Of a stretch of DNA of 64,000 nt, positions 9,719 to 52,882 are shown piece by piece. Every line of letters starts with the position of its first letter. Within the stretch, counting starts at the first letter, position 1. Under the pieces are notes generated by a model. That model worked only from the letters and a program-made list of their open reading frames with translations. It did not search any database and was not told the DNA's origin. The translations under genes were made by a program, and so were the position numbers. This DNA is from Mesoaciditoga lauensis cd-1655R = DSM 25116 (lineage in GTDB: Bacteria > Thermotogota > Thermotogae > Mesoaciditogales > Mesoaciditogaceae): positions 1 through 64,000 of the forward strand of contig NZ_JQJI01000009.1 in the NCBI RefSeq assembly GCF_000745455.1. Direction: 5' to 3'.

Positions 9719-9802
9719 CACTTTTCAAACCATTGAAATGCGTTAAATTTATAAGCAAATGGTGAGCAGTAAGAAGTTATGATTATTTTTTACGCACAAT
9801 GA

Positions 9803-10161
9803 CTCATGCGCAAATGTTACAAAGTATTTCAAAAAGTGATTAAATCTCACTCTCGAAGTACTTGTCAGAACATATGAGTGTTCCATCTGGAAATTCACCA
9901 ATATGAGGTTGAGAGGCACAGGACGTGCCGATAAAGCGAAGCATTCACGGACGAGTGTCTGAGCGTGCCTCATATTTTGAATTGAAAGAAGGAAAGAAGA
10001 GCGAATCCGTTCTGACAGAACTTCGAAAAAATCACCTTCACCGCTTGGAAAGCGGGTTTTAAATCAAAAATGTTGTCAAATGTTGCTCACATGTTTGTTC
10101 TTATAGAAATTTTTGTAATGTCTTTTGTAATACCTTTCGTAATGTTCACGCACAATGTGAG
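9803..10161. repeat. TIR-bounded repeat element T1 with 8 bp flanking direct repeat
   Basis: This 359 bp non-coding element begins CTCATGCGCAAATGTTAC and ends with GTAATGTTCACGCACAATGTGAG, the imperfect inverse of the start. It is flanked by the perfect direct repeat CACAATGA (9795-9802 and 10162-10169), which looks like a target-site duplication. Inside lies a long nested hairpin with outer arms 9853-9871 and 10009-10026, two small hairpins at its tip, and a separate hairpin CCGCTTGGAAAGCGG after the right arm. Related copies are at 20510 (inverted) and 34609. It lies between the amino acid ABC operon and malE. Confidence 0.8.
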
Positions 10162-10252
10162 CACAATGAGTTGTGAATTTTAGCGCTTCATCTTTTAACG
10201 TTAAACATAAAATTAAAAAGCGTAAACAACGGAATTATTTCGCAAAGGGGAC

Positions 10253-20509: not shown

Positions 20510-20869
20510 CTCATGTTGTGCGTGAACATTACGAAAAGTATTACAAGAGACATTACAAAAATTTTCTATGAAAACATATAAGTAGCATTTAACAACATTT
20601 TTTGATTTAAAACCCGCTTTCCAAGCGGTCAAAGCAATTTTTTCGAAGTCCCGTCAGAACGGATTCGCTCTTCTTTCCGTCTTCCTAATTCAAAATATGA
20701 GGCACGCTCAGACACTCATCCGTGAGTGCTTCGCTTTCTCGGCACGTCCTGTGCCTCTCAACCTCATATTTTGAATTCTCAGCCGGCGAGCTCATATGTT
20801 CTGACAAGTACTTCGAGGGTGAGGTTTAATCCCTTTTTGAAATGCTTTGTAACATTGACGCACGACGTG
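20510..20869. repeat. TIR-bounded repeat element T2 (inverted copy)
   Basis: This 360 bp element starts CTCATGTTGTGCGTGAAC and ends with AACATTGACGCACGACGTG. The interior is the reverse complement of T1 and T3, with the nested hairpin (arms 20643-20660 and 20798-20816), the tip hairpins and the GC-rich hairpin around 20612-20627. The right terminus lacks the final TGAG and runs straight into half of another repeat type (20867-20970), so that end appears rearranged. Confidence 0.75.
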
Positions 20870-20970
20870 CCGAGAAAGCGAATCTAACAGGATGTTTGTA
20901 TGCAGCGTGCTCTGTTATGAACATCTTGTATGGGTATACGTCTGAATCAGTTTTGACAAAACTTCAAAAA
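20867..20970. repeat. Half copy of the B-type hairpin repeat
   Basis: This is the reverse complement of 48028-48128, with near identity through the AACA/TGTT hairpin, the ACAAGATG-type arm and the outer arm TTTTGACAAAACTTCAA. The other half is absent; the break falls exactly in the GGCAC hairpin at the tip. Confidence 0.75.
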
Positions 20971-27282: not shown

Positions 27283-27916
27283 CGTGCGTGATTTTAATTG
27301 GTGAAGAAAGGTGATCATTGAAAATATTTATTGAAACACTTGTCAGCACGGATTCACTCTTTTATCCATCTTACGGCTCAAAAAACGAGGCACGCTCAGA
27401 CACTCGTCCGTGAGTGCTTCGCTTTTTCAACACATCCATGTGTTTCCCAACCTCGTTTTTAGAGTCTTCAGATGGAGAGTTCATAAGTGCCGGAAAGTGT
27501 CTCGATAAAAGAGAAGAGGGAAGAAAAGACTCTGTTATTTCGCATCTTGTATGGCGTCTTCATATGTTTTGACAGAAACTTCAAAAAAGGAGAGAGAAAG
27601 AGAGAAGCATGATTAATTCGAAACACTTGTCAGCACGAATTCACTCTTTTATCCATCTTGCGACTCAAAAAACGAGGCACGCTCAGACACTCGTCCGTGA
27701 GTGCTTCGCTTTCTCAACACATCCGTGTGTTTCCCAACCTCGTTTTATGAGTCTTCAGATGGAGAGTTCATAAGTGCCGGCAAGTGTTTCGAAAAAAAGG
27801 AGAGAAGAAAAAACTTTTGTTGGAAATGAACATATCTTATGACTTTTTACTATTTACGGCTCACTATTCACTTCTTATTCTCTGATTAATTTCTTAAACT
27901 TGGTGCACGTTAAGAG
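27276..27916. repeat. Composite TIR-bounded repeat region (two F-type hairpins and half a B-type)
   Basis: The left terminus CTCCTAACGTGCGTGATTTT (27276-27295) is mirrored at the right by TTCTTAAACTTGG followed by GCACGTTAAGAG, ending at 27916. Inside are F-type hairpin F1 (27331-27505), a half B-type repeat (27529-27588) and F-type hairpin F2 (27617-27793). F2 outer arms TTCGAAACACTTGTCAGCAC (27617-27636) and 27774-27793 pair at 18 of 20 positions. The segment 27529-27793 is nearly the same as 48143-48410, so the pieces moved or recombined as a unit. The region lies between namZ and the GntR gene and contains no convincing ORF. Confidence 0.75.
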
Positions 27917-34608: not shown

Positions 34609-34949
34609 CTCACATTGTGCGTCAATGTTACAAAGCATTTCAAAAAAGGATTAGTTCTCACCCTCGAAGTACTTGTCAGAACATATGAGCTCCCATCTGG
34701 AGATTCAAAATATGAGGTTGAGAGGCACAGGATGTGCCGAAAAAGCGAAGCACTCACGGACGAGTGTCTGAGCGTGCCTCATATTTTGAATTAGAAGACG
34801 GAAAGAAGAGCGAATCCGTTCTGACAGGACTTCGAAAAAATTGCCTTGACCGCTTGGAAAGCGGGTCCTAAATTGAAAAACGTCATATTTAAATGTTGCT
34901 CACATGTTTTCCTTGTAATGCCTTTCGTAATGTTTGTGCACAAGCTGAG
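34609..34949. repeat. TIR-bounded repeat element T3
   Basis: This 341 bp element runs from CTCACATTGTGCGTCAATG to ATGTTTGTGCACAAGCTGAG. The nested hairpin has outer arms 34664-34682 and 34818-34835 and perfect inner arms ATTCAAAATATGAGG (34703-34717) and 34777-34791. Tip hairpins are GGCACA-GGA-TGTGCC (34724-34738) and CACTC/GAGTG (34751-34766), and a further CCGCTT-GGA-AAGCGG hairpin lies near 34850. It has the same orientation as T1. No flanking direct repeat was found. It lies between the divergent pheS and purC transcription units. Confidence 0.78.
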
Positions 34950-35076
34950 TTTGTATACAAAGCAAAAATTATTATTTTCATGTATAACGTGAGCTTTAGA
35001 AAATTGTACGTAAAATGTATTTCATTTGAAACGATCCAAATGGTAGAATTTTTATGTGAAAAATTGAATATTCATA

Positions 35077-35145
35077 CCTTGTATAATCCTGGGAATATGG
35101 CTCAGGAGTCTCTACCAAGCAACCGTAAATTGCTTGACTACAAGG
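35077..35145 (+). ncRNA. Guanine-type purine riboswitch aptamer
   Basis: All landmarks of the purine riboswitch are present. P1 is CCTTGTA (35077-35083) with TACAAGG (35139-35145). The J1/2 ATAATCC and P2 CCTG/CAGG follow with loop GAATATGG, then J2/3 GTCTCTACC, P3 AAGCAA/TTGCTT with loop CCGTAAA, and J3/1 GACTA. The specificity base in GACTA is C, as in guanine/hypoxanthine-sensing members (adenine switches have GATTA). It controls the purC-led purine cluster. Confidence 0.95.
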
Positions 35146-35162
35146 GTGATTTGTGTTTATGG

Positions 35163-41718: not shown

Positions 41719-41940
41719 CTCCTAACGTGTGTGAAAGTGGAAAGGCGGTCATTGAAAATATTTATCGAAACACATTCCAGAACGAATTCACTCTTTTACC
41801 CATCTTACGACTCAAAAAACGAGGCACGCTCAGACACTCATCCGTGAGTGCTTCGCTTTCTCAACACATCCGTGTGTTTCCCAACCTCGTTTTTATGAGT
41901 CTCCAGCTGGAGAGTTCATAAGTGCTGGCACGTGTTTCAA
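41719..41940. repeat. F-type hairpin repeat F3 with left terminal repeat
   Basis: The left terminus CTCCTAACGTGTGTGA (41719-41734) matches that at 27276. The hairpin has outer arms 41765-41783 and 41922-41940, inner arms GACTCAAAAAACGAGG and CCTCGTTTTTATGAGTC, and tip hairpins CACTCA-TCCG-TGAGTG and AACACA-TCCG-TGTGTT. No right terminal repeat was found. It sits between purN and purH. Confidence 0.75.
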
Positions 41941-41994
41941 AAAAAGGAAGAAAGGAAGAAACTCTGTTAGATTAGATTTTTCTGAATGTCGCAT

Positions 41995-47998: not shown

Positions 47999-48027
47999 TG
48001 GAAAGGTGATCATTGAAAAAGAATTTT

Positions 48028-48198
48028 TTGAAGTTTTGTCAAAACTGATTCAGACGTATATCCATACAAGATGCTCATAACAGAGCACGCTGCATACAAA
48101 CGTCCTGTTAGATTCGCTTTCTCGGCACATCCTGTGCCTCCAACTCTGTTATTTCGCATCTTGTACGGCGTCTTCATATGTTTTGACAGAAACTTCAA
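48028..48198. repeat. B-type hairpin repeat (complete copy)
   Basis: Outer arms TTGAAGTTTTGTCAAAAC (48028-48045) and 48180-48198 pair. Further arms ACAAGATGC/GCATCTTGT (48066-48074, 48156-48164) and AACAGAG/CTCTGTT (48079-48085, 48144-48150) lead to a tip with GGCACA-TCC-TGTGCC (48124-48138) and a short AACG/TGTT hairpin. The plan is that of the E and F repeats with largely different sequence. Half copies are at 20867 and 27529. Confidence 0.75.
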
Positions 48199-48235
48199 AA
48201 AAAGGAGAGAGAAAGGCAGAGAAAAGCATAATTAA

Positions 48236-48461
48236 TCCGAAACCCAGTCAGCACGATTCACTCTTTTATCCATCTTACGACTCAAAAAACGAGGCACGCT
48301 CAGACACTCATCCGTGAGTGCTTCGCTTTCTCAACACATCCGTGTGTTTCCCAACCTCGTTTTTATGAGTCTTCAGATGGCGAGTTCATAAGTGCAGGCA
48401 AGTGTTTCGAGAAAGTGAAAAAGCAGAAGTTGATCGATTTCTTAAATTAACGTACGTTAGG
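48236..48461. repeat. F-type hairpin repeat F4 with right terminal repeat
   Basis: The hairpin has arms 48236-48254 and 48392-48410 and the same two UCCG-loop hairpins at its tip. The right terminus TAACGTACGTTAGGAA (48448-48463) is the inverse of the left terminus at 27276, so the 12 bp palindrome TAACGTACGTTA here is probably an element end rather than a guaB operator. It lies between guaA and guaB. Confidence 0.72.
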
Positions 48462-48484
48462 AATGAAAAACCATAAAAAGGTAA

Positions 48485-52586: not shown

Positions 52587-52882
52587 CTCAACCTGTGCGT
52601 CAATGTTACGAGAAATGTAAAGTGAACATTACGGATATTTGAAATGACTGTTTGAAAGCGAATTTGTAAGCTTGTAGAGCGTATATTTTAAAATCAGCCA
52701 CATTCAGGTTAAAATACATCAATCGAAAACCGATCAATGGTCAAAGATAAAATCCGTGAGAAAAAATTTCGAGTTCCCTAATTTGAGATTCAAAATGCCT
52801 AAAACTATGCCTGTTTTCAGCACGTAATATTTCTCGTAATATTTCTCCTAACATATTTCGTAATCTCCGCGCACAAGATGAG
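52587..52882. repeat. TIR-bounded repeat element T4 with 7 bp flanking direct repeat
   Basis: This 296 bp element runs from CTCAACCTGTGCGTCAATG to TCTCCGCGCACAAGATGAG. Subterminal inverted motifs include GTTACGAGAAA at the left and several CGTAATATTTCTC copies at the right. It is flanked by CAGCAGA on both sides (52580-52586 and 52883-52889), a probable target duplication. The interior differs from T1-T3 and lacks the large hairpin. I see no ORF in it. Confidence 0.78.

Follow-up and report, generated by a model that had tools for sequence, protein, structure and literature searches.

Correia, RUP and Nezha elements are bacterial MITEs, and they share with the element described here, T1, a short, non-coding sequence bounded by terminal inverted repeats (TIRs) and present in high copy. 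To our knowledge, no conserved RNA belonging to a named Rfam family is carried by any MITE of this kind. ISs of the IS4/IS701 group and their MITEs are likewise similar to our elements in having a DDE transposase, TIRs and internally deleted derivatives, while the IS701 duplication is 4 bp, unlike the 7 bp of the T1 family.

The TwoAYGGAY RNA (Rfam RF01731), described from the human gut, gamma-Proteobacteria and Clostridiales (PMC2864571), shares with the T1 interior an outer stem, a three-way junction, two hairpins with AYGGAY loops and tandem GA motifs. TwoAYGGAY RNAs were proposed to bind the global regulator CsrA via paired GGA hairpins, in what was termed a testable hypothesis, and the CsrA-sequestering RNAs known then were dedicated sRNA genes of Gammaproteobacteria (PMC4333381). 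RNAs of the CsrB/RsmZ type resemble the T1 interior in presenting paired GGA motifs in hairpin loops, and the two would work in the same way if CsrA binds. In contrast to TwoAYGGAY as described, the RNAs reported here occur in Thermotogota, where they number many per genome and lie within transposable elements. In addition, one hairpin often has the 5-nt loop AGGAY, and the core contains a conserved GAGAAAGCGAA linker. Unlike CsrB/RsmZ-type RNAs, they are dispersed transposon cargo and are candidate CsrA binders. What is new is the combination of a named structured-RNA family with more than one kind of MITE carrying and multiplying it. In the library searched, we found no paper tying CsrA sponges to transposable elements and no Thermotogae MITE paper covering such elements.

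T1, its copies and its parent transposon

T1 lies in the window, the whole 64-kb stretch of DNA analyzed, and is bounded where the sequence-only reading had placed it, with the perfect 8-bp flanking repeat that it had noted (Table 1); this duplication is one base longer than the family's typical 7 bp. The termini are imperfect inverses, as that reading had stated, and the left one, CTCATG-CGC-AAATGTTAC, carries a short deletion compared to the family consensus CTCACATTGTGCGTCAATGTTAC. Its caution that the repeat resembles the terminus was fair, since the left flank of T1, ACGCACAATGA, looks like an element terminus. We also found that the two similar copies it had pointed to, at 20510 (inverted) and 34609, are real and that the interior lacks a long ORF. 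Its "large nested hairpin" was right insofar as the interior is folded (the family consensus folds as a multibranch structure of about -130 kcal/mol) but missed that the interior is a conserved structured-RNA module.

Table 1. Features of T1 and related sequences in the window
Feature	Coordinates	Strand	Basis
Left target-site duplication, CACAATGA	9795..9802	+	read in sequence
Element T1 (MITE), 359 bp	9803..10161	+	copies, termini, duplications
Left TIR, short deletion relative to consensus	9803..9824	+	consensus comparison
TwoAYGGAY-like structured-RNA core, enclosed by outer helix P1	9853..10026	+	R1 match 9868-10012, 151 bits, E 1.8e-34
Hairpin H1, GGCAC-AGGAC-GTGCC, loop GGA 9921-9923	9915..9929	+	structure alignment
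Hairpin H2, tandem GA/GA, loop ACGGAC, GGA 9949-9951	9936..9964	+	structure alignment
Terminator-like hairpin followed by GTTTTAAATC, just 3' of core	10041..10055	+	consensus match only
Right TIR, CTCACATTGTGCGTGAACATTAC	10139..10161	-	terminal consensus matches
Right target-site duplication, CACAATGA	10162..10169	+	read in sequence
T1-type copy (core 20657-20801)	20510..20871	-	similarity, core model match
Type II core copy, in tandem with 27602..27803	27317..27513	-	core model match
Type II core copy	27602..27803	-	core model match
T1-type copy (core 34679-34821)	34609..34949	+	similarity, core model match
Type II core copy	41750..41953	-	core model match
Insert with type II core (48251-48395) and type III core (48042-48183)	47999..48468	-	missing at orthologous intergenic site in G003 and G004
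Internally deleted parent IS copy, C-terminal transposase codons 52714-52824, CAGCAGA on both sides	52587..52882	+	ends and codons compared

GyrB places the heat-loving host of T1 in Mesoaciditoga or a close relative (Thermotogota), with 93% to Mesoaciditoga sp. S142_12. The genome that carries T1 (2.17 Mb in 65 contigs) contains at least 40 near full-length copies that are 85-90% identical, rather than the lack of further copies that would have spoken against a mobile element. The terminal consensus CTCANNNTGTGCGTSAAYRTTAC had 239 genome matches with up to three mismatches, compared to 0 for a reversed-pattern control. Aligning 30 copies end to end gave a 361-bp consensus, to which copies are on average 93% identical, and flush exact duplications were present in 19 of 31 copies (14 of 7 bp, three of 6 bp and one of 8 bp, plus T1 with 8 bp). 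The T1 family is far beyond chance. A search of phage and plasmid collections gave no match.

Empty alleles, a check proposed in the sequence-only reading, were found in relatives (G001, G003 and G004) at the orthologous sites of copies other than T1, and nothing in the relatives marked the T1 region as ancestral, the other outcome that would have spoken against insertion. Neither G001 nor G003 has the T1-type copy G000:C10:14105-14466 in its orthologous intergenic region; orthology in G001 picks up again at the duplication, although the sequence to the left of the insertion has itself diverged. The guaA-guaB spacer (gene names are our reading of the flanking sequence) measures 470 bp and holds two cores in the window, compared to only about 15-25 bp in G003 and G004. 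At T1's own site synteny is broken, with its two neighboring genes lying apart in G001, G003 and G004, and a comparison of the gyrB flank found no synteny across the site.

Sequence comparisons identify the parent type of T1 as a DDE transposon of the IS4/IS701 group, with CTCANNNTGTGCGT termini of about 25 bp and target duplications of 7 bp. DDE transposase genes inside T1-kind termini are present in related genomes, and the search for an IS with matching ends that had been suggested found transposase codons between such ends both in these transposons and in the window remnant at 52587-52882, which is flanked by a perfect 7-bp duplication and whose codons show 62% identity over 37 residues. 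At the 3' end of T1, 24 of 26 positions agree with a transposon copy in G003, and at its 5' end 21 of 26 agree with the remnant in the window. The transposases carry Pfam DDE_Tnp_1 (PF01609) over its cut-off, whereas their best NCBIfam matches, the IS4 and IS701 models, all fall below equivalog cut-offs (at best 132 bits versus 250 for IS4_4 and 113 versus 170 for IS701_3). The closest parent subfamily is represented by a damaged copy, P0001 of G001; agreement between its right end, CTCACCCTGTGCGTGAACATTACGAAATATGTTACAAGAAATATTACG, and the 3' end of T1 continues past the terminal repeat. A complete relative in G011 is 1366 bp long, has a frame of 415 aa and is flanked by the duplication TTAACTA. 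No intact copy of the closest subfamily was found in the assembly of T1's own genome. Five contigs of this genome (C9, C17, C26, C29 and C36) end inside a second, multi-copy IS subfamily, and breaks in the assembly may therefore conceal intact copies. At L124, L125, L126, L127 and L128, five contig ends of this genome fall within about 45 bp of one another inside copies of one IS with right end CTCACGTTGTGCGTGGATGTTAAGTAATTAACCCC, so that a multi-copy IS interrupts the assembly.

The mobility signature and the matching IS ends are established by computation. Copy number, shared termini, 7-bp duplications, empty orthologous sites and a transposon with matching ends together support the MITE-like, non-autonomous element proposed in the sequence-only reading: T1 is short, has no ORF, is bounded by inverted repeats, belongs to a family with many duplicated-site copies and empty sites (at other copies) and ends like an autonomous transposon, as expected of a MITE derived from a DDE transposon. 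A transposase encoded elsewhere would bind the T1 termini and move the element. We set aside an IS200/IS605-type (HEARO/omega-RNA) origin, since the elements have TIRs and duplications and their partner is a DDE transposase.

A conserved structured-RNA core related to TwoAYGGAY

The interior of T1 is a conserved structured-RNA module of about 175 nt, and this core (T1 positions 55-229) recurs in copies with other flanks. Across 46 diverse sequences, the structure of 62 pairs has 95.3% of cells paired, compared to 28-43% when partners are slid, and covariation is 0.213 versus 0.127 when shuffled. Two-sided changes occur at 22 of the 62 pairs in this set and are spread over all seven helices, but they mostly track two core types and so may represent few events. 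G-U cells number 109 (one constant pair left out) versus 38 A-C cells, an excess that fits folding of the named strand as RNA. The H1 loops read CAC-ACGGAU-GUG or CAC-AGGAY-GUG and the H2 loops CUC-AYGGAY-GAG, with one G006 copy having GAAC-AGGAC-GUUC, a new stem in which GGA is kept; GGA is retained in both hairpin loops although the stems change. Tandem GA/GA pairs are found in the outer stem as well as in H2. Within T1 copies, divergence from the consensus is 4.5% in the core, 3.2% in the junction, 9.5% in the adjacent 3' region and 10.6% in the 5' terminus, so that the core diverges about half as much as adjacent element sequence, in a set of copies whose selection by similarity favors conserved cores. 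Two terminator-like sites, by consensus match only, were found in the region versus 0.4 expected, and no strong promoter was seen at the T1 5' end.

At the gathering threshold, an Rfam search over the whole window returned cobalamin and purine riboswitches only. These lie at 934-1109 and 35059-35160, respectively, with the T1-type copy at 34609-34949 some 110 bp upstream of the purine riboswitch. The best Rfam match of the cores on the correct strand is TwoAYGGAY, with 25.4 bits for a window copy, 32.3 for L119 and 29.2 for L033, all below the cut-off of 43; most core copies score below it (25-32 bits where reported), and T1's own core gave no TwoAYGGAY match in Rfam. One copy, G000:C12:6945-7116, exceeds the cut-off with 46.6 bits, but this copy, a near-perfect palindrome, scores for microRNA hairpin families as well, which indicates that long hairpins inflate scores. 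The pair of AYGGAY-loop hairpins around the junction is present, with H1 of T1, AGGAC, one base short.

We found that R1, a covariance model made from the cores described here, matches 11 of 103 Thermotogota genomes, some of them from two other families, with several copies in most. In the distant families the stems are unrelated, while NGGAY is kept in nearly all apical loops, and the TwoAYGGAY scores of two distant Thermotogota sites found by R1, 52.2 and 50.6 bits, exceed the cut-off. The conserved structure and the TwoAYGGAY link are computational observations, as the mobility signature is.

Core types and their carriers

The window holds eight strong cores. Type I cores reside in T1 elements, and type II cores, which have different stems, reside in elements with CTCC- or CTCA-type ends. 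Of 44 sampled cores, 21 have CTC[AC]NNN[ACT]GTGCGT-type termini on both sides and 17 on one side; these counts are approximate, since the background of the relaxed pattern is high (198 matches versus 90 in shuffled sequence). The 332-kb sample, which includes the window, was picked for copies and is biased.

Several further arrangements were seen. Type I cores also lie in a separate MITE type whose ends are GTTCTC...TGTGTGGATAA (L085:18459-18735, L084:17779-18087 and L092:18731-18999), and one such element has an apparent 8-bp duplication, GTTAAATT. Type III cores have other stems and the same GGCACAGGATGTGCCGAGAAAGCGAA motif (window 48042-48183, minus strand, and 20822-20953, plus strand, partial). 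Some G008 and G004 cores carry an extra hairpin module with CGACCAAAGCG at the three-way junction (L042:100-375 and L049:1370-1640). Four chimeric cores combine a type I outer helix with type II inner stems (L018:3136-3334, L091:7613-7815, L111:1028-1231 and L003:3100-3304), which suggests recombination between copies. At L141:1496-1678, the core has turned into a nearly perfect long palindrome in which the other arm's complement replaces the tandem GA region, an apparent template-switch repair.

A candidate CsrA-binding role and its alternatives

The genome of T1 encodes CsrA (G000:C64:5203-5358, PF02599, E 3.2e-21), and the cores have the paired GGA hairpin loops typical of CsrA-sequestering RNAs. 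Against a CsrA-related role, CsrA was not found in G008, a core-bearing genome, although this genome is 87% complete. Within the same family, G002 and G005 have neither cores nor CsrA, and G007 has CsrA without cores.

The complementarity could in principle arise at the DNA level: the core would be only a palindrome, with template switching or gene conversion among the many copies keeping its arms matched, its RNA functionless and its hairpin tolerated or aiding transposition. In one core copy, conversion has left the right arm perfectly complementary to the left one, some cores are chimeras that combine type I outer stems with type II inner ones, and arm homogenization can create compensatory changes without selection on RNA. 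However, the most conserved positions include the unpaired GGA loops, the tandem GA and the GAGAAAGCGAA linker, the excess of G-U over A-C is not what arm homogenization would yield, and distant families keep the loops on unrelated stems and score as TwoAYGGAY. Since these unpaired motifs are conserved and distant homologs exist, arm homogenization is unlikely to be the whole explanation, and we consider the palindrome account improbable. A core acting as a transcription terminator or insulator that makes intergenic insertions harmless would fit the terminator-like hairpin at 10041-10055 with its T-rich tail and the T-rich or A-rich tracts beside many cores, but the three-way junction, conserved GGA loops and tandem GA would be superfluous for termination; we regard this as quite improbable as the main function, although a terminator role and an RNA role could be compatible. 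Assignment to REP/BIME or another class of extragenic palindromes is hardly tenable: the module is intergenic, repeated and palindromic, but it is far longer, has TIRs, target duplications and a three-way-junction structure, and the transposase inside such ends is of the DDE type rather than the REP-associated Y1 type.

The RNA might instead be an older resident sRNA family that MITEs captured several times, hitch-hiking passively with no selected role in the elements. The occurrence of cores in tandem and in elements whose termini fall into at least two unrelated kinds would be explained in this way, as would the several copies in other Thermotogota families. On the other hand, even within T1 copies the core changes about half as fast as the element sequence beside it, and repeated capture by different MITEs itself needs explanation, so that passive capture seems to us rather unlikely while still deserving some weight.

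Taken as a whole, the locus is probably best explained as an IS4/IS701-group MITE carrying a TwoAYGGAY-type RNA, for which a CsrA binder is the likeliest identity. The plus strand of T1 would be transcribed, ending perhaps at the terminator-like hairpin, and the outer helix with its tandem GA/GA would lead into the three-way junction and present the two A(Y)GGAY-loop hairpins. CsrA dimers could then be bound through the paired GGA hairpins, and the transcribed element would titrate or locally recruit CsrA, perhaps to the benefit of the element or the host. We put forward this CsrA-binding role as the likeliest function of the RNA, with somewhat less than even confidence.

Through transposition, many copies of a candidate regulatory RNA have become scattered over one genome. 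A more tentative extension is a mobile regulatory-RNA network, in which several kinds of transposable element multiply a CsrA-binding RNA, element load sets free CsrA, and CsrA may in turn control or tolerate the elements. If the RNA does bind CsrA, transposition would have dispersed a sponge RNA for this regulator, and the TwoAYGGAY hypothesis (PMC4333381) would extend to a new phylum with dozens of natural variants. Binding would also allow a direct test of whether a functional RNA cargo drives the spread and persistence of MITEs.
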